Positions 46,017 to 57,016 of a stretch of 64,000 bases of DNA are shown piece by piece. This DNA comes from Gemmatimonadota bacterium (GTDB lineage: Bacteria; Gemmatimonadota; Gemmatimonadetes; Longimicrobiales; Gaopeijiaceae), in the NCBI GenBank assembly GCA_022826565.1, contig JAJDUP010000026.1, positions 62,001 through 126,000 of the forward strand. Direction: 5' to 3'. A model generated the notes under the pieces. That model saw only the letters and a list, made by a program, of their open reading frames with translations. It had not been told where the DNA came from and did no database searches. The translations under genes were made by a program, and so were the position numbers. How positions within the stretch are numbered: the first letter of the stretch is position 1; each line of letters starts with the position of its first letter.

Positions 46017-46704
46017 GCAGTCCCTGGAACAGGTCCCCGCTGCATTCGGACGGCGATGGATCCGTGCTGGGCGCGGCGCTCGCGCACCCCGCACTGCCAG
46101 GGTTGTGGGAGGGGTGGCCGGGTTGCTGTGCGGGATGATGGCCGGAGCGTGGGTGCCTGCGAGTGCCCAGGAGGCCGCAGGGCCGGATACGGTGGTTGTG
46201 GACTCGATCGCGGCAGCGGACTCGCTCGCCGCCGCCACCTCCGGGATCAGCCCCTCCGGCGCCTTCCTGAGGGGCGCGCTCATCCCGGGATGGGGGCACA
46301 CCGCCACCGGATCGCTGACCAGGGGTGCGTTCTACTTCAGCATGGAGGCGCTCGCGGGGTGGATGGTCTTCAAGACACAGCAGCGGCTTGGGGTCGCTCA
46401 GGACCAGGCGGCGCTCTGGGAGGAGCGCGTGACCGCGGAACTGATGGCACAGGGGATCACCGAGTTCGAAGCGCTCGACGCGGCGTTGCAGGACAACGAG
46501 CAGGTGGCGCGTTTCCGCGGCCTGGTCGACGCACGCAAGGAACAGCGAGAGGACTGGCTCGCCGTCGCCATCTTCACGCTACTTCTCTCGGGAGTGGACG
46601 CGTTCGTCTCCGCCCACCTGGGCGACTTCCCCGAGCCGCTGACGGTCGAAGGCGATCCCGGGGGTGGCACGGTGGAGGTGGCCCTGCGGTTGCCGGTGGG
46701 CTAG
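46009..46704 (+). CDS. DUF5683-like membrane protein
   Basis: The 231-residue product overlaps the lipid-kinase gene by eight bases. It has a signal-type helix near residues 17-43 and then the pattern ALIPGWGHTATGSLTRGAFY and LLSGVDAFVSAHLGDF, which marks the DUF5683 family of small membrane proteins with a C-terminal barrel-like strand region in Bacteroidota and Gemmatimonadota. Their function is unknown. The frame is open from 45928, but ATG 46009 begins directly before a basic, hydrophobic N-terminus. Confidence 0.7.
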   Translation: MGRQSLEQVPAAFGRRWIRAGRGARAPRTARVVGGVAGLLCGMMAGAWVPASAQEAAGPDTVVVDSIAAADSLAAATSGISPSGAFLRGALIPGWGHTATGSLTRGAFYFSMEALAGWMVFKTQQRLGVAQDQAALWEERVTAELMAQGITEFEALDAALQDNEQVARFRGLVDARKEQREDWLAVAIFTLLLSGVDAFVSAHLGDFPEPLTVEGDPGGGTVEVALRLPVG

Positions 46705-46769
46705 TGGGTTCGGGTACGACCTCCCCGGGGGGTCGGTGTCCGGTCCGACGAGGACGTCGTGCCGGGACG

Positions 46770-47510
46770 CTAGTCTTCCCACTCGTGCAGCATCGGCTCC
46801 CCGCCGTCCTCCAGGGTCACGTAGCTGCGGTGCGTGACCCAGTCTCCGGAATTCACGTAGTAGCGCCCGGGCGCCGCCTCCACGACCGCGGGGCAGTGCG
46901 CGTGACCGGTCACGACGATGTCGAGGCCCGGATCGAGGACCAGCTGCTCGGAGGCCCACGCCGAGAGGAATGCGAGCCTCCCCCGCGCGGCTTCGCCAGC
47001 CGGTTCGGTCAGTGAACTGCCGGTGCCCGACACCCGGTCAGCGAGCCGCGCCCCCAGATCCGGGTGGAGCCAGCGGAAGAGCCAGCGCGTGACGCGCCCC
47101 CGGAGGATCAGGCGCAGGCAACGGTATCCGAGATCCCCCGCGCCCAAACCATCGCCGTGAGCGATGAGGAGGGATCTGCCCTGGACCTGCATCCGGATGG
47201 GCTGACGATGGAAATCCACACCGATGCGCCCGGTCAGGAAGCTCCCTCCCCACCAGTCGTGGTTGCCGCCCATCAGCACTACGGGGATACCGGCTTCGAC
47301 GATGTCGGCCAGCAGAGCGAGGACGCGCACATGCTCACCGAGGACGACCCGGTCGTATTCGAACCAGAAGTCGAAGAGGTCCCCATTGATGATCAGGCGG
47401 CTACCCGATTCCTTTACATGGAGGAGCCACCGCCGGAAGGACCGCTCCGTCTCGGGCGGCACGGCGCCCAGGTGCACGTCGGATACGATGAAAACCGGTT
47501 TGGAGGACAT
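46770..47510 (-). CDS. lpxH: UDP-2,3-diacylglucosamine pyrophosphatase-like (LpxH-type) metallophosphatase
   Basis: A 246-residue calcineurin-like phosphoesterase with the full metal-site set: SDVHLGA (about 10-16), NGDLFDFWFEYD, MGGNHDWWGG, AHGDGLG and GHAHCPAV. The DFWFEYD segment and size match LpxH, which hydrolyses UDP-diacylglucosamine to lipid X in lipid A synthesis; LpxH2 or a related phosphatase is the alternative. ATG 47510 gives the family start MSSKPVFIVSDVH; the frame is open to 47615. It is convergent with the DUF5683-like gene. Confidence 0.82.
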   Translation of the reverse strand: MSSKPVFIVSDVHLGAVPPETERSFRRWLLHVKESGSRLIINGDLFDFWFEYDRVVLGEHVRVLALLADIVEAGIPVVLMGGNHDWWGGSFLTGRIGVDFHRQPIRMQVQGRSLLIAHGDGLGAGDLGYRCLRLILRGRVTRWLFRWLHPDLGARLADRVSGTGSSLTEPAGEAARGRLAFLSAWASEQLVLDPGLDIVVTGHAHCPAVVEAAPGRYYVNSGDWVTHRSYVTLEDGGEPMLHEWED

Positions 47511-47568
47511 GATGCGCGAAGCTAGCAGTCCGTGGATAAACCCGCACGAGCACCGAGAGCGGTGAGGC

Positions 47569-47580
47569 GCCGGGCTGGCA
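47569..47580 (+). repeat. Candidate left attachment core of the accessory region
   Basis: GCCGGGCTGGCA recurs in direct orientation at 54389-54400, just beyond the integrase gene. The repeat is short and GC-rich, so chance is possible. Confidence 0.25.
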
Positions 47581-47729: not shown

Positions 47730-49601
47730 CTACCGTCCACCAACAGGGGCATCCAGCGCGTACACATGCAAGTATTCGATCCCAAGATCATCCGTCCAGA
47801 CACCGATGATCTCATCCCCAGTTATAGAATGGGGGCGAAACCCTGGTGGCAGAACAGCCTCTCCCAGATCTCGACCATCCAGATCATAGATACGCCAAGT
47901 CGAAGGTCCGAGCGCATCCGCAGGCATGCGAAACTCCTCCACCCACACGCGTCCACCCTCCTGAACGGCCAGCGCCCGGAACGCAGGCAAGGTGGCGGGC
48001 AGTACGACGGTCTCAAGAAGAGAACGCCTACTCCTGCGGACGCCGACATCATCAATCTTCCCGAGTTCGCCTTCGATCCATCGGTCACGATCGGCGTCCG
48101 TGACCTCGACCGCCCCCAACGAGCGCCGAATGGTCGCGATGTCCTGGCCGTCCGGGTAAGCGATCCGGATTTCGTAGCTGTCCGTATTTCCGAACGCGAC
48201 AATACCCCAACCGACAGCCGCTTCAAGCGTCCTAAGGAACGGAACATCGACGCGGGTACTGCCTACCGTGAGGGAACCAGAACTCGACTGCCTCTGCACG
48301 AACGACACTCTCTCTGGACCCATCAGACCACGCACCGCACCCAAGCCAGTTCCACGGTCATCGAAGAACAGCAGTTCCGCTTCGGGGCGTCGCTGATGAA
48401 TCGACTCCGTTGTTGGCAATTCCTCGGGCAGGGACATGCCGGTCGATTCTACTGCGACCCTTTGCGAGAGGGTTCGGGAGGCCACAAACACGCCGTCGGT
48501 GGTCCAGCCTACGGGGGATAAGAATACTCTAGGACCGGCGGTCTGCCCCATTGTTTGCGGTATCTCGGATTCTGCGTCCACGGGGGCGGTTCTGGCCAGT
48601 CTGCCGTAGGAATCAAAGACCGAGATGCGCCCGTTCCATCGGTCGAACACGAACAGGGTGTCGTTACTGCCAACGCCGATTGCCCCGATTCGCAGGAACT
48701 CGCCCGGACCGTCACCCCTCCGACCGACCGCTTCCTGAAACTCCCCGTCTGCCGCAAAGAACAACAGTTCTGAAGTGCCGCTGTTCCCTACGACGATACG
48801 TCCATCGCCCAGGAATGATGCTCCGACGACCTCGTGGAACACGAAGTCACTGTCGAATACCGAACCGATTTCGATGTGAGGACGTGGGCTAACCCTCCAG
48901 GAGTTGCCCGTGGCCCACTCCGCAGCTGTGGCAGGGGGCGGCCGGGGAAGACTTCGCAGCGCTTCCTCGAAGTCTGCGGGAAACACGCCCTCGACGGTCA
49001 CGTACGCCGGAGTACCGGTGACGCCCAACCGAGCCGCAAGTCGCATGTCGTCCTCGATACGGCGGGCGGTCTCCACGTCTTGCAGGCAAGCGGCGAACAT
49101 CGCCGTGTCGCGGATTCCTAAGGTGGAGGCCCACGCCACCCAATCGCGGTCCTCCAACCAATCGTCATCCATCAGGAGCCTACGGTGAGCTTCCGCAAAC
49201 ACGCCGTGTCGCTCGCTACAGATCGCGGCAGCAGCGGCAGATCGCGCACCGGGGTGAATCCGGTCCAAGGGAAGGTGGCGGATCACTATGTCGGCTTCTT
49301 CCAGAGCGACCACGTCGAGCACTCGCGATGCTCCTCGGCGACAGTACGGGCACTCGTAGTCGACGAACTCGACAACTGTGCGGCTCGGTTGGACAGTGCT
49401 GTTCGCCAATCGGGACGACCCTTGAGTGAGGCCCGGCCAAACCTCTGTGATCGTACGCCCCATCTGCCAATCGTCGTAGACGCCCTTCACGGTTCGTCCC
49501 AGCGAACCTTCGAACAGGACGAACGCCAACGTGGCCACAATGGCCACATTGATAAGCAGATTCAGCTTACCCCGAGCGGGTGGCGCCGACGGTTCGGACA
49601 T
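47730..49601 (-). CDS. DsbA-like thioredoxin fused to a six-bladed propeller, membrane anchored
   Basis: The 623-residue protein has an N-terminal membrane helix (about 13-30), then a DsbA-type thioredoxin fold with active site CPYC (C84, C87) and a cis-proline loop GVTGTPAYVTV near residue 195. From about 225 to 623 it forms an NHL/6-bladed propeller (GDGRIVVGNSGTSELLFFAADGEF, read as several blades). Thioredoxin and propeller domains are usually separate. It is the last gene of a minus-strand operon, nine bases after the PDZ-like gene. Codons are visibly less GC-biased than in neighbouring housekeeping genes, suggesting transfer. A role in oxidising or handling the Cys-rich peptide of this operon is an inference. 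Confidence 0.82.
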   Translation of the reverse strand: MSEPSAPPARGKLNLLINVAIVATLAFVLFEGSLGRTVKGVYDDWQMGRTITEVWPGLTQGSSRLANSTVQPSRTVVEFVDYECPYCRRGASRVLDVVALEEADIVIRHLPLDRIHPGARSAAAAAICSERHGVFAEAHRRLLMDDDWLEDRDWVAWASTLGIRDTAMFAACLQDVETARRIEDDMRLAARLGVTGTPAYVTVEGVFPADFEEALRSLPRPPPATAAEWATGNSWRVSPRPHIEIGSVFDSDFVFHEVVGASFLGDGRIVVGNSGTSELLFFAADGEFQEAVGRRGDGPGEFLRIGAIGVGSNDTLFVFDRWNGRISVFDSYGRLARTAPVDAESEIPQTMGQTAGPRVFLSPVGWTTDGVFVASRTLSQRVAVESTGMSLPEELPTTESIHQRRPEAELLFFDDRGTGLGAVRGLMGPERVSFVQRQSSSGSLTVGSTRVDVPFLRTLEAAVGWGIVAFGNTDSYEIRIAYPDGQDIATIRRSLGAVEVTDADRDRWIEGELGKIDDVGVRRSRRSLLETVVLPATLPAFRALAVQEGGRVWVEEFRMPADALGPSTWRIYDLDGRDLGEAVLPPGFRPHSITGDEIIGVWTDDLGIEYLHVYALDAPVGGR

Positions 49602-49610
49602 GTTCCCCCC

Positions 49611-50051
49611 CTACAGAAGGGCCGGATGATCTTTCCGTGGAACCGTCAGCAAGGTCACTTCGAACTCCTTCTCCTCCCGCCGAAGCTTGAACTTGTAGCT
49701 CCTGCCCGGAATCCGAGGTGGAAAAGGACTCGTCCGCGCATCGGCATTCTCGACCTCTAGGATCGCATCCCCGACTCGAACCCCAGCTCGGTGCGCCGGG
49801 CCGTCACACTCCACCTTCTGTACAAGGGGGTAGTCGGCCCAAGCCACCCGACCGTCTCGTCTGGTCATGACCCCACCCCAACTGAACCCCCAAGTACCTG
49901 GTGACGGAGTCCCGGCGACGATCCCGCCTGTCCTATCGGGTGTACCGGGCGGTGTGCAGTCCAACTCCGGATCCGGCTCCTGCGGAAACGCAGAAGCCGG
50001 AAGGAGGGTGGCGACGATGATTGCCGCGACTCGGATTAGTGGCAGTAACAT
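49611..50051 (-). CDS. Small exported PDZ-domain-like protein
   Basis: The 146-residue product has a signal peptide (LIRVAAIIVATLLPASAFPQ) and a C-terminal domain with the PDZ pattern GPAHRAGVRVGDAILEVENA followed by FKLRREEKEFEVTL. The N-terminal mature part is proline-rich with one cysteine (LDCTPPGTPD). PDZ domains bind protein C-termini or internal peptides, so it could present the neighbouring peptide or dock the propeller protein. ATG 50051 follows AGGAGATCGA; its start overlaps the peptide gene by 16 bases. Confidence 0.72.
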   Translation of the reverse strand: MLLPLIRVAAIIVATLLPASAFPQEPDPELDCTPPGTPDRTGGIVAGTPSPGTWGFSWGGVMTRRDGRVAWADYPLVQKVECDGPAHRAGVRVGDAILEVENADARTSPFPPRIPGRSYKFKLRREEKEFEVTLLTVPRKDHPALL

Positions 50052-50242
50052 TCGATCTCCTGGGTGTCGCACCAGAAGATGCACGTCGCCCCACCGCCGC
50101 ACCACTCCGCAACCTCCATGGTGTACTCGATAGCCCACTCGATGTCGACGCACATGTCGGGGGCAGGGGTGGCGGTGGCCTTGGATCCCACGGAGAGCGC
50201 CACGATCAGCGCTACGGCGAGGACTTGGAAGCGTCGGATCAC
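50036..50242 (-). CDS. Small exported Cys-rich peptide
   Basis: A 68-residue product from GTG 50242, which has a perfect AGGAGG site. Residues 1-25 form a signal peptide (FQVLAVALIVALSVGSKATA), and the mature part of about 43 residues has six cysteines, one near its start and five in the last 22 residues, ending ECYCH. Even cysteine number and export suggest three disulfides. I recognise no family; bacteriocin-like, adhesive or signalling roles are all open. It is the first gene of the operon with a PDZ-like protein and a DsbA/propeller fusion, which could fold or bind it. Confidence 0.7.
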   Translation of the reverse strand: MIRRFQVLAVALIVALSVGSKATATPAPDMCVDIEWAIEYTMEVAEWCGGGATCIFWCDTQEIECYCH

Positions 50243-50609
50243 GAGATTTCCTCCTGTGTTGATGGAATTGAAGCGAAATGAGCGTCCGCAACGTACACCG
50301 GTCCCGCCCGGCCTGTCAACGACTAGTTCAGTGTTTTCCAACCCGTACATGAGCATGAACGAGCCGGGGGGAGGGGCCGAGGTGGGAGGGTGCGATAGTG
50401 AGGGGTGGTGGAGGTTGGGATGGTGGGGTCGCGGAGGGGGCGGCGCACTCTTGCTCGGCTTGTCGGAACCTCCATGGAGGCGATTCCCGCGCCGCTGGCG
50501 GCGGCGTGTCGCGGGCTGGAGGCGGTGCGGAACATCCTGAAACGTCCCCGGACTGTAGGTCGTTTCCGACAGGTTGACGGGCTTGCGGGAGGGCTTTCAG
50601 CGTTCGGAC
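50243..50609. other. Divergent spacer between the peptide operon and the integrative element
   Basis: About 370 bases with no gene I can support. It holds the minus-strand promoter at 50290-50319 and a G-rich, repetitive plus-strand stretch (about 50365-50450). A strong element boundary was not found here. Confidence 0.5.
50290..50319 (-). promoter_or_regulatory. Candidate promoter of the Cys-rich peptide operon
   Basis: On the minus strand TTGACA (complement of 50314-50319) is followed after 18 bases by TACGTT (complement of 50290-50295). Transcription would start about 40 bases before the GTG start. Confidence 0.5.
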
Positions 50610-51101
50610 ATGGAGACGCTGGAAGAGTACTTCAGCACGCGAGTTAGCGCGTTCCTCGACGACACGGGACTGAGCCCGACGAGGTTCGGCAGGCAGGCGC
50701 TGGGCGACCCGAACCTGGTGCGCCAGATCGAGGGTGGCCGGTCCCTGACGCTGCGCTCGGCGGATCGTGTTCTGGCGTTCATCTCCGGGCTCGGCCGGGA
50801 GTCGGGCGGCGCGCGCGATCCGCCCCGCCGCCGCCGGTACCGGAAGCCTGCACCGAGAGCGAAGAGAACGAGGAGGAACACAGCGATGACCAAGCAACAG
50901 ACGGAACCGAGAACGAACCCAGCGGTCCGCTTCGTGCGGCTGCCCGAGGTGATGGCCCGCACGGGGCTGTCGAGGAGCACGATCCATGTGAGAGTGGCCG
51001 AGGGCCGGTTCCCCAAGCCGATCCCGCTGGGGGCGCGGTCCGTGGGCTGGATCGAGTCGGAGTTGGACGAGTGGTTCAGCGACCGGATCGTGGAGCGATG
51101 A
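50610..51101 (+). CDS. XRE-like/AlpA-like double helix-turn-helix regulator
   Basis: A single open frame of 163 residues encodes two DNA-binding parts. Residues 1-60 resemble phage-type XRE proteins (FLDDTGLSPTRFGRQALGDP, then IEGGRSLTLRSADRVLAFI). A basic linker (RRRRYRKPAPRAKRTRR) leads to an AlpA-type MerR-like helix-turn-helix (VRLPEVMARTGLSRSTIHVR, WIESELDEWFSDRI). AlpA proteins activate excision genes. ATG 50610 is the most sensible start, but its ribosome site is poor. A strong internal site before ATG 50886 suggests that AlpA is also made alone. Its stop overlaps the next gene (ATGA). Confidence 0.7.
   Translation: METLEEYFSTRVSAFLDDTGLSPTRFGRQALGDPNLVRQIEGGRSLTLRSADRVLAFISGLGRESGGARDPPRRRRYRKPAPRAKRTRRNTAMTKQQTEPRTNPAVRFVRLPEVMARTGLSRSTIHVRVAEGRFPKPIPLGARSVGWIESELDEWFSDRIVER
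50886..51101 (+). CDS. AlpA-like protein from an internal start
   Basis: GAGGAGG lies about 10 bases before ATG 50886, in the frame of the longer regulator. It would yield a 71-residue AlpA protein (MTKQQTEPRTNPAVRFVR start), the usual size for stand-alone AlpA excisionase regulators. Either this is the only real product or both forms are made. Confidence 0.55.
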   Translation: MTKQQTEPRTNPAVRFVRLPEVMARTGLSRSTIHVRVAEGRFPKPIPLGARSVGWIESELDEWFSDRIVER

Positions 51102-52030
51102 CCGCTCGTCTTGAAGAACGGGCCGAGGCCCTGAAGCCGTTCGGCTGGAAGGGCCGCAAGGCCGAGTGGATCGCCTTGGTGTGCCTGCACAGCGGGGTGT
51201 TCACCCGCACGCAGGCGACGGCCTTCCTGAAAACGCACCACGAGCGGGCGAGGCGTATGGTGCATGCGCTGATCGCGCAGGGTCTGGCTGCCGAGGAGAC
51301 CGTTCCGCGTGTCCGGGGGATCGGCCGAGTCTGCCGGATCTACGCACGACGCCTCTACCGCGCGCTCGGAGCCGAGCACATCCGCCACCGCAGGACCGCC
51401 TCCCCGGTCGTGCTCCTGCGCCGCCTGCTGTCGCTCGAACACGTGATCGAGCATCCGAACCTGCCGTGGCTCCCGACCGAGGCCGAGAAGGTGGCCGCGT
51501 TCGATGCGCTTGGCATCGAGCGCGGGCTGCTGCCCGTCCGGGTGTACCGGGGCGCCGCCGGAACCACGCGCCGGTACTTCCACGTCAAGCTGCCCGTCGC
51601 GCTGGACTCGAAGCGCGCCGTGTTCGTCTACGCCGATCCCGGCCACGACACCGCGACCGCGCTCCGGTCGTGGGGCGACGCGCACCGGGGCCTCTGGCGG
51701 GCACTCGGGACTCTGGGCTGGTCCGTCGAGACGGTTGTAGTCGCCCGTTCGCTGCGCGAGACCAACCGGGCCAGGAAGGTGATGCGCTACTGGACCGAAG
51801 GATTCGGCCCCGCCGAGCCCGACCCCAAGACTGCTGAGGAGCTCGCCCGGATCGAACGCGCGATCCTCGAAGGCGCGGTCGAGATCCTCGATGAGTACGG
51901 AGGGCTGCAACCCGCCTTGCAGCGCAGCGTGGCGCTGGAGAAGGTGGCCCGGCGGCAGCCCCGGCGCGCCATGATCCACCACGCCAGCGCTTGGCGGACG
52001 GTTCGCCTCCAAGGGGTGCGTTACCTGTGA
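51098..52030 (+). CDS. Winged-helix protein of an integrative element
   Basis: The 310-residue product is not recognised with certainty. Residues about 20-80 form a winged-helix region (GVFTRTQATAFLKTHHERAR, RMVHALIAQGL), the rest is mixed alpha/beta with a nuclease- or replication-relaxation-like feel (YFHVKLPVALDSKRAVFVYAD, VETVVVARSLRETNRARKVM). Such proteins accompany AlpA and integrase in mobile elements and may start replication or transfer. ATG 51098 overlaps the AlpA stop, so the two are translationally coupled. Confidence 0.62.
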   Translation: MTARLEERAEALKPFGWKGRKAEWIALVCLHSGVFTRTQATAFLKTHHERARRMVHALIAQGLAAEETVPRVRGIGRVCRIYARRLYRALGAEHIRHRRTASPVVLLRRLLSLEHVIEHPNLPWLPTEAEKVAAFDALGIERGLLPVRVYRGAAGTTRRYFHVKLPVALDSKRAVFVYADPGHDTATALRSWGDAHRGLWRALGTLGWSVETVVVARSLRETNRARKVMRYWTEGFGPAEPDPKTAEELARIERAILEGAVEILDEYGGLQPALQRSVALEKVARRQPRRAMIHHASAWRTVRLQGVRYL

Positions 52031-52294: not shown

Positions 52295-52758
52295 AGCATC
52301 AATCCCTACGGGAAGGTTGAACCACCGATGAAGCTCACTACGCTCGTCATCATCGGCGCGGCCATCGGTGCCGCGGCGGGACGCGCCATCGGTGCTCCGT
52401 TCCCCGGCGCTGGCGCGAACCCCCACCTCGACCTGATCGCCTACCACGGTCCGGCCTCCACGCCGTTGGCCCACCTCCGCTACTACGCAGCCCCGTCCGC
52501 CCGGGATTCGATGCTTCGGAGACCTGTCGTCTCGGCAAAGCGAAGCGGCAGCCTTCGCGCTCGGGTGGAGCGCGAGAGACCGGCCAACCGCACCGGAGCC
52601 GGTGACGGGCGGTGGCTGTCACGGCCCGGCAGCCATCTTCGCGGAGCGCCACTTGACGGCCTTCCTGCAAGGATCGCTGGCCCGGAGCGACCCGCCGCGG
52701 AGGATGGGATGGAGTGCACATCCCAACCTCCGCAGATGCCACGGCAGGCATCGAAAAT

Positions 52759-52781
52759 GGGGGGTCGCTACGGCCACGGCC
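52759..52781 (+). repeat. 23-bp dispersed inverted repeat, right copy
   Basis: It is the inverted partner of 52194-52216, 543 bases away, and runs into the 12-bp hairpin that starts at 52773. Confidence 0.8.
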
Positions 52782-52821
52782 TCCTGTTCCAGCGCGGCAC
52801 AGCCGCCCCGGAGGCCGTGGC
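52773..52821 (+). repeat. 12-bp perfect stem-loop with an inner hairpin
   Basis: GCCACGGCCTCC (52773-52784) pairs with GGAGGCCGTGGC (52810-52821). The 25-base loop contains its own GCGGC-ACA-GCCGC hairpin. Confidence 0.75.
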
Positions 52822-52884
52822 ACAACCACAGTCTGGACAACGACATATGCAGTCGCCGATCTGCACGTCCGAACCGCGATCTCG

Positions 52885-52912
52885 CGCACATGAGGTCTGT
52901 TTCACATGTGCG
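52885..52912 (+). repeat. 8-bp perfect stem-loop
   Basis: CGCACATG (52885-52892) pairs with CATGTGCG (52905-52912) across a 12-base loop, about 220 bases before the integrase start. Confidence 0.65.
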
Positions 52913-53130
52913 GTCCCCGCACGGCCCCAGGCGCGCGTCCGGAGTCCGATCAACCATCAGCCCCAGCTTTCATGCGCGCCACACCCTCACAGACCCCTGA
53001 CAACGCGCCTGAACCGCTTCCGGCGGGGCGTTGAGTACCCGTTGGACGGTCCGGCACTGGCCGGGAAGCCACGTTCACGCGAGATTGCGAATGCGCAGAT
53101 CGTGCAGTCCATCATCCAGAAGGGAATCGA

Positions 53131-54294
53131 ATGATGGCACGCACGAAACGAAGTCGGCGAGCATACAGCGCCGGCGAATGGGGCCGGAACCGGGTGAGGG
53201 TGTTCGCCGATCCCAAGACCGGCATGTACCAGATCGAGTGGCGGGAGAACGGGCGCAGGCTGAGCCGGTCGCTCAGACACCGCGACTGGCGGCGCGCGAA
53301 GCGGCAGGCGGACGAGTTCGCCGCGGGCTTCGTTCTGCCGGAGGTGAACGGGAGCCGGAACGCCGAGCCCGAGCCGCTCACGCTGGGAGCGCTTTTTGAA
53401 ATCTACGGGGAAGAGGTGACGCCCACGAAGGGCAGGCACACCCGGAAGCACGACCGGATCACGATGGGGATGTTCCTCCGGTTCTTCGGACGGAACCGGG
53501 ACCCGGCAACGCTTTCGCAGCGCGACTGGGACCGGTTCATCCGGGCTCGCAGGGCGGGCAGGGTTGGTCCGAGCGGGAGGCCGGTGTCCGACCGCACGGT
53601 CGAGTACGACCTCAAGCTCCTGATCGCGATCTTCAACTGGGCCGCGAAGTCCCGGGACGAGCGGGGCCGGTTGCTGCTCGACAGGAACCCGCTCAGGGGG
53701 CTGAGGACGCCCAAAGAGAAGAACCCGAGGCGGGTCGTGCTCGCCGAGGACGAGTACCAAGCCCTTCTCAAGGTGTCCCGCAAGGTGGACTGGCGGTTCC
53801 ACGTCGCGCTCGTGCTCGCGCACGAGACCGGGCACCGGATCGGAGCCATCCGCAAGCTGCGGTGGACGGACATCGAACTCGATGCCGGAATGATCCGGTG
53901 GAGGGCCGAGTACGAGAAGACGGGTTACGAGCACACGACGCCCGTCACCGCCGAAGCGCTCGCCGCACTCGCGGAGGCGCGGGAAATGAAGGTCGGGGGC
54001 GGCGACGCTCACGTCCTGCCCTCGCCCGGGAATCCCTCGGTGTGTTTGGGCTCCTCGCGGGCGCGCTCGTGGTGGGCCAAGGCCCAGAGGCTCGCGGGGC
54101 TGGAGCCCAAGCGCGGGAGGGGCTGGCACTCGCTCAGGCGGAAGTTTGCGACCGACCTCATGGACCAGCCGCTGAAGGTGCTGTGCGAACTCGGCGGTTG
54201 GAAAACGGCCAAGACGGTCCTACGTTGCTATCAGCGAGCCGACGAGGGACAGCTTCGGAAGGCACTGGACGCCCGCCGCCGGGCGCACGGCTAG
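53131..54294 (+). CDS. Tyrosine-type site-specific integrase
   Basis: The 387-residue recombinase has an N-terminal arm-binding region, a core-binding SAM-like domain (about 85-185, LGALFEIYGEEVTPTKGR) and the catalytic domain (about 200-375). Catalytic residues are visible: arginine in ETGHRIGAIRKLRW, HxxR in WHSLRRKFATDL, and the nucleophile tyrosine in TVLRCYQRA, with GGWKTAKT in place of the common GH(S/T). It integrates and excises the element. ATG 53131 (or 53134) follows GGGAATCGA. It is the last gene of the element. Confidence 0.92.
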   Translation: MMARTKRSRRAYSAGEWGRNRVRVFADPKTGMYQIEWRENGRRLSRSLRHRDWRRAKRQADEFAAGFVLPEVNGSRNAEPEPLTLGALFEIYGEEVTPTKGRHTRKHDRITMGMFLRFFGRNRDPATLSQRDWDRFIRARRAGRVGPSGRPVSDRTVEYDLKLLIAIFNWAAKSRDERGRLLLDRNPLRGLRTPKEKNPRRVVLAEDEYQALLKVSRKVDWRFHVALVLAHETGHRIGAIRKLRWTDIELDAGMIRWRAEYEKTGYEHTTPVTAEALAALAEAREMKVGGGDAHVLPSPGNPSVCLGSSRARSWWAKAQRLAGLEPKRGRGWHSLRRKFATDLMDQPLKVLCELGGWKTAKTVLRCYQRADEGQLRKALDARRRAHG

Positions 54295-54388: not shown

Positions 54389-54400
54389 GCCGGGCTGGCA
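54389..54400 (+). repeat. Candidate right attachment core
   Basis: GCCGGGCTGGCA, direct copy of 47569-47580, lies about 95 bases after the integrase stop, where an attachment site is usually found. Confidence 0.25.
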
Positions 54401-54475
54401 AGGCGCGACGAGGGAAGAATAGCACCGCTATTCGCCCGAGGAGCAACGCAGAGCGAAGTCTCGAAAAGGAAGATG

Positions 54476-54481
54476 TATACT
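54476..54481 (+). promoter_or_regulatory. Candidate -10 box (TATACT) before the second palindromic operator
   Basis: TATACT stands out in GC-rich DNA. A start site near 54488 would place the palindrome at 54495-54512 directly downstream, where a bound protein would block the polymerase. No clear -35 box was found. Confidence 0.35.
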
Positions 54482-54494
54482 GAACATGACAAAA

Positions 54495-54512
54495 TGTAAT
54501 GTTAACATTACA
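54495..54512 (+). promoter_or_regulatory. Perfect 18-bp palindromic operator
   Basis: TGTAATGTTAACATTACA is a perfect palindrome. Its core differs from the metY copy at 38329-38344 by one base in the centre. The 7-2-7 geometry resembles Fur-superfamily sites, but the regulator is unknown. Confidence 0.68.
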
Positions 54513-54561
54513 GGATGAACAGGCTGGACGAAGCGGCCAACGCGGATGCATCGCCGTTCGA

Positions 54562-55302
54562 ATGCCGAGAGGGTTTTGTCTACGGGCTGCTAGGGTCGGC
54601 AGATGCGCCGCGGTAGTTGCCGCGGTGGCGTTGGCCGGGGCTTGCGCGGGCTTCGGGGGGCGTTCCCCTGGGACCTGGCCTGCGGTGGCGCCAGGAGCCC
54701 GGCCGGCCGCGGAGGTGCAGGGAACTGCGCTGGAAGCCCGGAACAGGACCCGCCCCCGGGAAGCCAGCAGCGTCGTATTCCGGTGGAGTGCCCGGGAACC
54801 CGACTTCCGTGGCTCCGGGATGGGGGTGGCGCGGGTGGAGCCGCCGTACCGGGCCAGGCTGGATCTGTTTCTCGACAACGGAGAGACGGTCGCGATCGCC
54901 GCCCTCGTGGACGATGAGTTGAGGATCCCGGAATCGCTCCCCACCGGACTCGTCCCGCCCGCGCCGCTGATGTGGGCCGCGCTGGGCGTCTTTCGGCCCG
55001 GGGCCGGCGCCGAGGTATTGCAGGGGAGTGTCGTGGATGGCACGATGGAGGTGCGTTACCGGCTGCGGGCGGGCGATCAGGTCGGCTTCCGCCTCCGCGA
55101 CGACGCGCTCCGCGACGCGGTCCTGCTCAACGGCGATGTGGTGGTGCAGCATGTCTTCGTTTCGGAGCCTGCCGCGGGCGTCGGCTTCCCGGGCGAGGCG
55201 ACCTACCGCAACCTGCCGGACTATCGCGAACTCAAGCTGATCCTGGAGTCGGTCGAGGATGTCGATTCATTTCCGCCGGATATCTGGACCCCTCGTGGGT
55301 AG
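54562..55302 (+). CDS. Lipoprotein of unknown function
   Basis: The 246-residue product has a lipobox (AVALAGAC, lipidated C28). The mature region contains a DUF4292/LolA-like beta pattern (RFRWSAREPDF-like FRWSAREPDFRGSG, then RVEPPYRARLDLFLDNGE), suggesting a lipid- or peptide-binding half-barrel. The family is not certain. ATG 54562 is chosen for the signal peptide; the open frame starts at 54499 inside the operator. Its end overlaps the LptE-like gene by 44 bases, so the two are probably an operon under the operator at 54495-54512. Confidence 0.72.
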   Translation: MPRGFCLRAARVGRCAAVVAAVALAGACAGFGGRSPGTWPAVAPGARPAAEVQGTALEARNRTRPREASSVVFRWSAREPDFRGSGMGVARVEPPYRARLDLFLDNGETVAIAALVDDELRIPESLPTGLVPPAPLMWAALGVFRPGAGAEVLQGSVVDGTMEVRYRLRAGDQVGFRLRDDALRDAVLLNGDVVVQHVFVSEPAAGVGFPGEATYRNLPDYRELKLILESVEDVDSFPPDIWTPRG

Positions 55303-55804
55303 GCGAGTGGCGATCCTGGCCACGGCGGCCGCGCTTTCCATGGCCGGCTGCAACTACTCCTTCACCTCCGGCGCCGGGTTCCCCGAACACATCCGCACCA
55401 TCGCCGTCGTCCCATTCGAGAACGATACCAACCGTTTCGAGCTCACGCAGGAGGTGCACGAGGCGTTGCTCAGGCAGGTCCCCCGGTCGCTGGGGCTGAC
55501 CCCTGCCGGCGAGGAAACCGCGGACGCGGTCCTGACCGGGACCATCCTGCGCTACGAGCTGACGGCGCCGCTCTATCGGCGCGGCCAGGAGGCCGAGACC
55601 GTCCAGGTCCTCCAGCGCGAGGTGATTCTGGTGGTGCAGGTTGAGGTGCTCGACCGGGAGGCGTATACGATCCTCTGGGACCAGTCGCAGCTGCGGGTCG
55701 TGGGGCAGTATCTGGATGCCAGCGAGACCGAGGACGTGGGGAGAGTCGAGGCCATCGAGCTTCTCGTTCAGGAGATAGTGGACGGGGCCCAGTCCAACTG
55801 GTAG
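55259..55804 (+). CDS. lptE: LptE-like LPS assembly lipoprotein
   Basis: The 181-residue product has a lipobox (LSMAGC, C31) and the LptE-family pattern: GFPEHIRTIAVVPFENDTN, then LTQEVHEALLRQV and ADAVLTGTILRYEL, ending in a helical tail. LptE plugs the LptD barrel and helps insert LPS in the outer membrane. ATG 55259 overlaps the upstream lipoprotein gene; GTG 55295 is an alternative start that also keeps the lipobox. The link to LPS fits the rfaE and lpxH genes of the window. Confidence 0.82.
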   Translation: MSIHFRRISGPLVGRRVAILATAAALSMAGCNYSFTSGAGFPEHIRTIAVVPFENDTNRFELTQEVHEALLRQVPRSLGLTPAGEETADAVLTGTILRYELTAPLYRRGQEAETVQVLQREVILVVQVEVLDREAYTILWDQSQLRVVGQYLDASETEDVGRVEAIELLVQEIVDGAQSNW

Positions 55805-55863
55805 ATTCGCCTGCGGAAATCTGGATTCACGGCAACCACGAACCCCCTGGGAGCGCGATAACC

Positions 55864-56346
55864 TTGAACCGGGCTGTTTGGCTCTGGGGGATCCTCTTCG
55901 CGATCTGGGTGCTGCTTTCGTGGCACTTCACCCCGCTTCTGATCGTGTTCGGTGTGGCGACCTGCACGATTGCGGTGTGGGTCGGCCTGCGCATCGAGAC
56001 CGTGGACCGCGAGTCGGTTCCGGTGCACCTGGTTCTCAGGGCGTTCCTGTACGTTCCCTGGCTGGTATGGGAGATCTTCAAGTCGAACGTGCGGGTGGCC
56101 CGGATCATCCTGGCGCCGCGCCTGCGGGTCGATCCCTCGATCGTGCACTTCCGGGCATCCCAGAAGTCGGATCTGGGACGCTTCATCTACGCCAACTCGA
56201 TCACGCTGACGCCCGGCACCGTCACCACGGGGATCGTGGGGGACGACTTCGAGGTCCACGCGATCGTCCAATCCGAGATCGACGGTTCCGAGGAGAACGA
56301 CATGAACCGGCGGGTGGCGGTGCTGGAAGGGGAAGCTGCACAATGA
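55864..56346 (+). CDS. mrpE: Mrp-type antiporter subunit E
   Basis: A 160-residue membrane protein of the MnhE/MrpE family: two N-terminal helices (WLWGILFAIWVLLSWHFTPL), then LRAFLYVPWLVWEIFKSNVR and the conserved YANSITLTPGTVTTGI. It is the first gene of a tightly overlapping operon of ten genes to 63311 that forms a multisubunit cation/proton antiporter. TTG 55864 follows GGGAG. Its TGA overlaps the ATG of mrpF. Confidence 0.9.
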   Translation: MNRAVWLWGILFAIWVLLSWHFTPLLIVFGVATCTIAVWVGLRIETVDRESVPVHLVLRAFLYVPWLVWEIFKSNVRVARIILAPRLRVDPSIVHFRASQKSDLGRFIYANSITLTPGTVTTGIVGDDFEVHAIVQSEIDGSEENDMNRRVAVLEGEAAQ

Positions 56347-56630
56347 TGTTCACGGTCACTGCCGCGGCCCTCCTGGTCGCGATGGGGCTGGTGATGTGCC
56401 GGGCGCTCCTTGGGCCCACGGCCTACGATCGCGTCCTGGCGCTGAACAACATCGGCACCAAGACCGTCATCCTGATTGCGGTCCTGGGCTTTCTCAACGG
56501 GCGCCCGGAGTTCCTGGACCTCGCGCTGGTGTACGCCCTGATCAACTTCATCGGGACGATCGCGGTGCTGAAGTACATCGAGTACGGTGACCTCGGCGCC
56601 CGGTCACGCCCCGACAGGACGGTGCGCTGA
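56343..56630 (+). CDS. mrpF: Mrp-type antiporter subunit F
   Basis: A 95-residue, three-helix protein with the MrpF signature CRALLGPTAYDRVLALNNIGTK (read as RALLGPTAYDRVLALN) and ALVYALINFIGTIAVLKYIE. ATG 56343 overlaps the mrpE stop; a second ATG follows immediately. It ends in TGATGG with the start of mrpG. Confidence 0.9.
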   Translation: MMFTVTAAALLVAMGLVMCRALLGPTAYDRVLALNNIGTKTVILIAVLGFLNGRPEFLDLALVYALINFIGTIAVLKYIEYGDLGARSRPDRTVR

Positions 56631-57016
56631 TGGACCAGGTCGCGGCCGCGGCGAGCTGGGCGCTGCTCCTCGGGGGCTCGTTCTTCCTGCTGACCGGTTC
56701 GCTGGGGATGGTCCGCCTCCCCGATGTCTTTACGCGCATGCACGCCGGGGGGATGACCGACACGATGGGCGCCGGGATGATATTGGTGGGATTGGCCGTG
56801 TACAACGGGCCCGATCTCATTGCGGTGCGCCTGCTGCTGATCCTCGCTTTCCTCTGGTTCACCAGTCCGATCGCGACGCATGCGGTGGCGAAGGCCGCGC
56901 TTTCCGGCGGCCTGGACCCTTACACGCTCGAGGGAGGGCCGGCTGCCGCGGCCGACGACTCGACGGGGCCGCGTGGCGGCGACGCGGCGGGCACGGCGGG
57001 AGGTGCGACATCGTAA
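56630..57016 (+). CDS. mrpG: Mrp-type antiporter subunit G
   Basis: A 128-residue membrane protein of the MnhG/PhaG family: FLLTGSLGMVRLPDVFTRMH, DTMGAGMILVGLAVY and WFTSPIATHAVAKAAL are diagnostic. A glycine/alanine-rich tail extends the usual length by about 25 residues. One-base overlap with mrpF. Confidence 0.9.
   Translation: MDQVAAAASWALLLGGSFFLLTGSLGMVRLPDVFTRMHAGGMTDTMGAGMILVGLAVYNGPDLIAVRLLLILAFLWFTSPIATHAVAKAALSGGLDPYTLEGGPAAAADDSTGPRGGDAAGTAGGATS

Follow-up and report, generated by a model that had tools for sequence, protein, structure and literature searches.

Why should a bacterium encode a short, cysteine-rich exported peptide directly beside a PDZ-like protein and a membrane-anchored protein of the DsbA family? 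The question is raised by a stretch of 64,000 nucleotides (the window) from contig JAJDUP010000026.1 of a Gemmatimonadota bacterium of the Gaopeijiaceae, in which three such genes lie on the minus strand between positions 47730 and 50242. An original prediction, made from the letters of the window, had read this trio as a dedicated system to oxidise, bind and display or export a disulfide peptide. We think it probable that the trio belongs to a mobile cassette of a system that has spread through one class of the Gemmatimonadota, and that makes and presents diversifying exported multi-disulfide peptides. The recurrent grouping of the genes, the retention of the cysteines, the fast change of the mature peptides and the presence of an integrative element can be read directly from the sequences; the remainder of the proposal is more conditional and is set out below.

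The trio and its products

The three genes were found as originally described, behind a single promoter-like sequence. The first (50036..50242, minus strand) starts with GTG at 50242 and encodes 68 amino acids with a Sec-type hydrophobic segment and six cysteines. Its end overlaps by 16 nt the gene for a small exported PDZ-like protein of 146 amino acids (49611..50051, minus strand). The third gene starts 9 nt past the PDZ stop codon and encodes a membrane-anchored DsbA fused to a six-bladed NHL-type propeller (47730..49601, minus strand; 623 amino acids). Upstream of the peptide gene (50250..50319, minus strand) we read a promoter-like pair, TTGACA-N18-TACGTT, at 50319-50290 and a Shine-Dalgarno sequence, AGGAGG, at 50255-50250. 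By eye, the same -35/-10-like pair is present in the related locus L060 and a near form of it in a second relative, L061.

All three frames are kept in L060 and L061, whose fusions are 96% and 89% identical to that of the window and whose peptides, of 68 and 70 amino acids respectively, have all six cysteines intact. The peptide frame, on whose conservation between relatives the prediction had staked its case, is thus retained. Among the window, L060 and L061 the ratio of nonsynonymous to synonymous substitution rates (dN/dS, Nei-Gojobori) was 0.22-0.35 for the PDZ-like gene and 0.27-0.42 for the fusion. For the peptide it was 0.77-0.92 in comparisons with L061, and 1.79 against L060, a value that comes from only 7 differences. 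In its model, the mature window peptide forms a helix and then a hairpin (predicted local distance difference test score (pLDDT) 88.2, predicted template modelling score (pTM) 0.61), and no convincing match to this model was found among solved structures. No NCBIfam or Pfam model matched the window peptide, and the best family match among 22 peptides scanned, at E 0.0065, was to an unrelated family.

As predicted, the third gene encodes a CPYC-containing DsbA joined to a six-bladed propeller. It matched the Pfam families DSBA (PF01323, E 4.7e-14) and DUF5128, a six-bladed propeller family (PF17170, E 3.8e-11), and its AlphaFold 2 (AF2) model had a pLDDT of 86.3 and a pTM of 0.64. Structure comparison of the model showed the propeller (about residues 232-620; 47742..48908, minus strand) to be six-bladed and NHL-like. 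The DsbA-like domain (about residues 62-224; 48930..49418, minus strand) has the DSBA fold, the CxxC motif (CPYC, residues 84-87) and the cis-proline (Thr-Pro, residues 197-198) of its family, and the model matches solved DsbA-like proteins. Nearest in structure were ScsC, Wolbachia DsbA2 and 3gyk, the last of which was also the best solved match by sequence, and BcfH followed closely. Two helices (residues 9-31 and 33-59) precede the domain in the AF2 model, the first of them membrane-like, and the model of the fusion aligns with ScsC (7rgv) from residue 3. DsbA2, BcfH and the ScsC proteins of Caulobacter and Proteus are reported to be trimers that act as isomerases or as oxidase/isomerases (PMC8900818). 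Relatives of the window contain 12 further DsbA-propeller fusions (one ended by a contig edge) in addition to that of L060, and C84, C87 and P198 are invariant in 13 fusions. One more distant fusion, L066, comes from a record titled Candidatus Palauibacter, and the window's genus is presumably Palauibacter or a near neighbour of it.

Across 60 DsbA loci of the window's genus (L140-L198 without L172, plus L043 and L273) a CxxC motif was present in 57 and none was found in 3, and 56 have Thr-Pro at the cis-Pro position. The dipeptide within the motif varies (CPFC in 21, CPYC in 9, CPAC in 7, and many rarer forms including CAVC and CRHC), and this variation may tune redox behaviour to each peptide. 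The window's own genome, of which the assembly is 93% complete, encodes one VKOR and two DsbD-type proteins, and no DsbB was detected in that assembly; VKOR is therefore the likeliest route of DsbA re-oxidation. A search of the same genome with the fusion gave 90 matching segments, most of which belong to stand-alone propeller genes; six-bladed NHL-like propellers have expanded greatly in this lineage.

The best PDZ match of the second protein (PDZ_2, E 4.8e-5) scored 24 bits against a cut-off of 27, and its homologues at L265 and L266 lie above the Pfam cut-offs, with PDZ_6 at 1.6e-9 in L265. A search of 146 genomes of the order at E 1e-6 detected the protein in 9, of which two belong to the window's genus. 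The peptides encoded beside PDZ genes show by eye no shared C-terminal motif, ending in CYCH, CYCL, CDCVE, DECLP, IPAPS and TCSAA, and so lend no support to binding of the peptide C-terminus by the PDZ-like protein. Within family f3 the gene order is peptide, DsbA, PDZ in L249, L252 and L246 (4 Cys) and peptide, PDZ, DsbA in L243 (4 Cys), while L266 has peptide, PDZ, propeller. Several loci of family f3 adjoin a gene for a large barrel of the outer membrane that includes a carboxypeptidase-regulatory domain. A barrel of this kind, of about 1200 amino acids, recurs near DsbA and PDZ genes, lying downstream in L265:4781-8341 and L075:3282-6998 and on the opposite strand in L259:9395-13001.

Recurrence and divergence of the peptides

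Short exported open reading frames (ORFs) were detected as frames of 45-110 amino acids with a signal-like segment, a Shine-Dalgarno word and at least six cysteines, with thresholds set after a first look at a looser list. This detector found 52 peptides in 503 kb around the DsbA loci of the genus, taking the overlapping loci L146 and L172 separately; 400 kb of random sequence yielded one. With the length limit raised to 115, after a ten-cysteine peptide of 113 amino acids in L182, 43 of 62 DsbA-domain places in the genus had an exported ORF with at least six cysteines upstream, on the same strand and within 2.6 kb, compared with 1 of 280 random windows; as the 23 genomes that supplied the 62 places are related, the places are not independent (L169/L170 and L167/L168 are near-identical pairs). 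Neither of the outcomes that the original prediction had named as refuting it, the lack of a short cysteine-rich ORF beside any homologue of the fusion and a peptide frame that differs between relatives, was observed. The genes occur in the orders peptide, fusion; peptide, DsbA, propeller; and peptide, propeller, DsbA, and two or more peptides are present at L144, L162, L172 and L186.

At propeller loci of the window's own genome that lack DsbA, no exported peptide with at least six cysteines was found (0 of 20; length limit 110). The peptide therefore goes with DsbA. Counted with a profile built from these loci, a propeller lies within 3 kb of DsbA at 39 of the 40 loci with a peptide (taken from our own gene calls, with L273 outside the set) and at 12 of the 19 without one; random 7-kb windows gave 15 of 80. 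The propeller fused or near at almost every peptide locus would also suit a quite different arrangement, a periplasmic enzyme matured by DsbA in which the propeller would be the large subunit and the peptide a small one with a structural or catalytic part to play. Methylamine dehydrogenase, with MauA, MauB and MauD, has the same three kinds of part: a cysteine-rich small protein, a beta-propeller and a dedicated thioredoxin-fold protein. We consider such an enzyme unlikely, however, because the mature sequences differ strongly between close relatives, unlike those of a catalytic subunit, and because the propeller is six-bladed and NHL-like, not seven-bladed as in MauB. The propellers at peptide-less DsbA loci, and the 20 propeller loci with neither DsbA nor peptide, also argue against it. 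Of the dedicated peptide system first envisaged, what stands is a conserved module of peptide, DsbA and propeller, in which the PDZ-like protein is a partner in a minority of cases.

Beyond the genus, 69 wider DsbA loci (length limit 110) gave peptides in two, L075 and L082, both Gemmatimonadaceae by title and both with the peptide upstream of the DsbA match; this corresponds to 2 of 9 loci with Gemmatimonad- titles and 0 of 60 others. Within the class we took 30 loci, the best of many more matches to a query from the peptide-bearing L075 (L314, L316 and L328 overlap earlier stretches). Of these best matches, 22 came from outside the genus. An upstream peptide with at least six cysteines was present at 11 of the 22, a four-cysteine peptide at two more and an eight-cysteine peptide downstream at one; the short stretches retrieved included a propeller gene at 12. 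This distribution bears on whether the peptide might be the host-directed product of a sponge symbiont, as several bins of the genus (SB and RHO names) presumably come from sponges, an origin that the record titles do not state. Since the pairing extends to further families of the class and to two bins of the Gemmatimonadaceae, we regard a host-directed role as quite unlikely.

High-GC genomes contain many false ORFs, and this, together with detector thresholds chosen after a first look, could produce a chance neighbourhood of spurious cysteine-containing ORFs and ordinary envelope genes. The random windows, the propeller loci and the wider DsbA loci, with 1/280, 0/20 and 2/69 peptides at similar thresholds, and the even cysteine counts and conserved frames and cysteines of the peptides make this exceedingly improbable.

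An even number of cysteines (6, 8 or 10) was found in 52 of 57 non-redundant peptides, as disulfide pairing predicts. Between related loci the signal part is conserved and the cysteines are kept in nearly all pairs, and the sequence between the cysteines is not conserved. These features also bear on whether the peptides are exported cysteine-thiolate peptides that bind copper or a similar metal, with the ScsC-like protein serving metal tolerance. In favour of this, one of the solved structures nearest to the DsbA model is ScsC, whose Caulobacter form binds copper(I) (PMC8900818). Against metal binding stand the even cysteine counts, the lack of conservation between cysteines and the neighbouring genes, among which no metal-transport gene stood out in the 25 largest clusters, judged by eye from examples; we hold it to be very improbable.

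In all 19 informative pairs, with peptide identities of 51-91%, dN of the mature peptide exceeded that of DsbA, and in five of them (L156/L158, L156/L161, L158/L161, L195/L273 and L268/L269) mature dN reached or exceeded dS. Thirteen of the 19 pairs are among six related loci, and two L167/L168 rows (96% and 99% alike) were excluded. Similarity of DsbA and similarity of peptide were weakly correlated beyond shuffles (Mantel r 0.112, 1/2000; 48 loci, mature residues without cysteines).

The trio as cargo of an integrative element

The original prediction had placed an integrative element next to the trio and suggested that the trio might be cargo. The element is present, and the trio lies not merely adjacent to it but inside it, as cargo within 6.8 kb. 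The left and right ends are identical 12-bp copies of an att core, GCCGGGCTGGCA, at 47569..47580 and 54389..54400. The plus strand encodes an AlpA-type excisionase/regulator (50574..51101; Phage_AlpA 6e-21; PHROG excisionase), a protein of 319 amino acids (51071..52030), an ORF that starts as a remnant of a conjugative coupling-protein gene (52328..53134) and a tyrosine integrase (53131..54294; Phage_integrase 4.6e-17). The 319-residue protein has no match in Pfam, PADLOC or PHROG at E 0.01, and has homologues in 19 of 23 genomes of the genus. Only about the first 58 amino acids of the remnant are alike, with 65.5% identity to residues 1-58 of a 675-residue protein of L302, which matches TrwB_AAD_bind/TraG-D_C.

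At L274 we found the corresponding empty site, where window positions 46141-47580 and 54389-56996 lie side by side with an overlap of 12 bases and the att core is present as a single copy. This establishes the trio as element cargo, and the tyrosine integrase, excisionase, direct-repeat ends and empty site together identify an integrative element. At 18 other lpxH loci of the genus (L275-L292) lpxH lies beside lipoprotein and lptE genes, and no match to the fusion or the element genes was found at any of them.

The fusion is 89% identical to the G019 copy (L061), where LpxH is only 66% identical, and 96% identical to the G139 copy, where LpxH is only 53% identical. Third-position GC in six comparison genes, three flanking and three of the element, was 0.82-0.88; by this measure the claim that the codons are less GC-biased than their surroundings held for the PDZ-like gene and the fusion (0.65-0.67) and failed for the peptide (0.84). 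The higher identity of the fusion than of LpxH, together with the lower third-position GC of the PDZ-like and fusion genes, supports horizontal transfer. The trio-bearing contig G139:C53 (3820 bases) belongs to a genome in the window's family and another genus; as this genome has 6% contamination, a binning error is possible for its copy. The L060 record, apparently the same contig, is labelled Gammaproteobacteria and has the trio and element genes at 96%; it is likely to be mislabelled or misbinned Gemmatimonadota DNA.

We found genes of the element family at 13 of 60 DsbA loci, at 2 of 20 loci with a propeller only and at none of 20 random loci; an upstream peptide was present at 7 of the 13 element-linked DsbA loci. 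The element family is common, occurring in 19 of the 23 genomes of the genus, and its copies mostly carry other cargo. We considered whether the element is a dedicated carrier of the module and rejected this, as an exported ORF with at least six cysteines was found in only 6 of 25 copies, within the stretches fetched (the window, the copies at DsbA loci L142, L151, L196 and L273, and 20 others). The module is therefore one cargo among several. In L196 the ORF sits downstream of its DsbA, and the 20 other copies alone gave one six-cysteine ORF. This ORF (L297:3145-3432) is exported and lies beside a gene for a TonB plug-domain receptor, and no DsbA gene was labelled in 12.5 kb around it. Larger relatives of the element contain a coupling protein (L302, L294), TrbI and TraG-like genes (L299) or an ArdC-type antirestriction gene (L294); L305, L307 and L309 were grouped with them by similar layout only. 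These relatives appear to be conjugative or mobilisable, and the window copy looks like a shortened form.

Proposed mechanism and known systems

We propose that the peptide would leave by Sec, and that the membrane-anchored DsbA, whose fold is nearest to ScsC-type and related trimeric isomerases and oxidases, would form and proofread its disulfides and be re-oxidised by the VKOR of the genome. That DsbA serves the adjoining peptide is a strong inference. More speculatively, the NHL propeller, here with the PDZ-like protein, might act at the envelope to hold, escort or present the peptide once folded, possibly joined in one family by the outer-membrane barrel encoded alongside. At a guess, the peptide could act outside the cell in competition or recognition, a role that would explain its diversification and mobility; the fast evolution and mobility prompt this guess, and PedC-like bacteriocin operons are its nearest precedent.

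Several observations weigh against the proposal of a mobile system for diversifying disulfide peptides. No upstream peptide was detected at 19 of the 62 DsbA places, including L143 and L154, which have 5 kb of upstream sequence, nor at 6 of the 13 element-linked DsbA loci. The active-site dipeptide varies so greatly that some of the DsbAs may not be oxidases. Mature dN/dS was below 1 in 14 of 19 pairs, so that relaxed constraint could mimic diversification, and no exporter or immunity gene stood out by eye in the 25 largest neighbour clusters. A bolder version of the proposal is put forward only tentatively: widespread, horizontally mobile loci of the Gemmatimonadota would together encode a repertoire of diversifying disulfide peptides exported by Sec (with 6, 8 or 10 cysteines in most), comparable to toxin or defensin repertoires and used in rivalry or kin recognition. 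Each locus would have a private membrane DsbA and, almost without exception, an NHL propeller (in some cases a PDZ protein or outer-membrane barrel) as holder or gate.

We found no description of such peptide-DsbA-propeller modules in a literature search, which left most subscription papers outside its scope, and this family of bacterial disulfide peptides in the Gemmatimonadota is apparently undescribed. If the proposal is correct, a little-studied phylum gains a large family of natural disulfide-rich peptides, each with an enzyme encoded beside it. Such a family could supply folded mini-proteins and would let the bacterial folding of many different multi-disulfide peptides be studied.

Among known systems, the class II bacteriocin operons (pediocin PedA/PedC; sublancin, BlpGst) also encode a short secreted disulfide peptide with its own CxxC thioredoxin-fold protein, and PedC raises the potency of pediocin (PMC4919988). 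Here too a short exported cysteine-containing peptide is encoded beside a CxxC thioredoxin-fold gene, its disulfides being presumed. The loci described here differ from those operons in that no ABC exporter or immunity gene was noticed by eye in the 25 largest neighbour clusters, and in their Sec-type signal, three to five possible disulfides, membrane ScsC-like DsbA, propeller and PDZ protein. Kinship with the NVEALA peptides of the Bacteroidota, to which the original prediction had pointed and which are likewise short, exported and cysteine-containing and lie near DUF5128/TolB-like propellers, was not borne out. No match to PF14055 was found in 21 genomes, where the control, Bacteroides ihuae, was positive, or among 22 peptides, and propellers without DsbA have no peptide here. 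The mau system shares a cysteine-rich small subunit, a beta-propeller large subunit and the thioredoxin-like MauD, and differs from the six-bladed NHL propeller and hypervariable peptides found here. With ScsC, Wolbachia DsbA2 and BcfH the window protein appears, from its model, to share a DsbA fold with N-terminal helices and Thr-Pro at the cis-Pro place, and also CPYC; it is set apart from them by its transmembrane-like anchor, its fused or adjacent propeller and its linked genes for cysteine-rich peptides.

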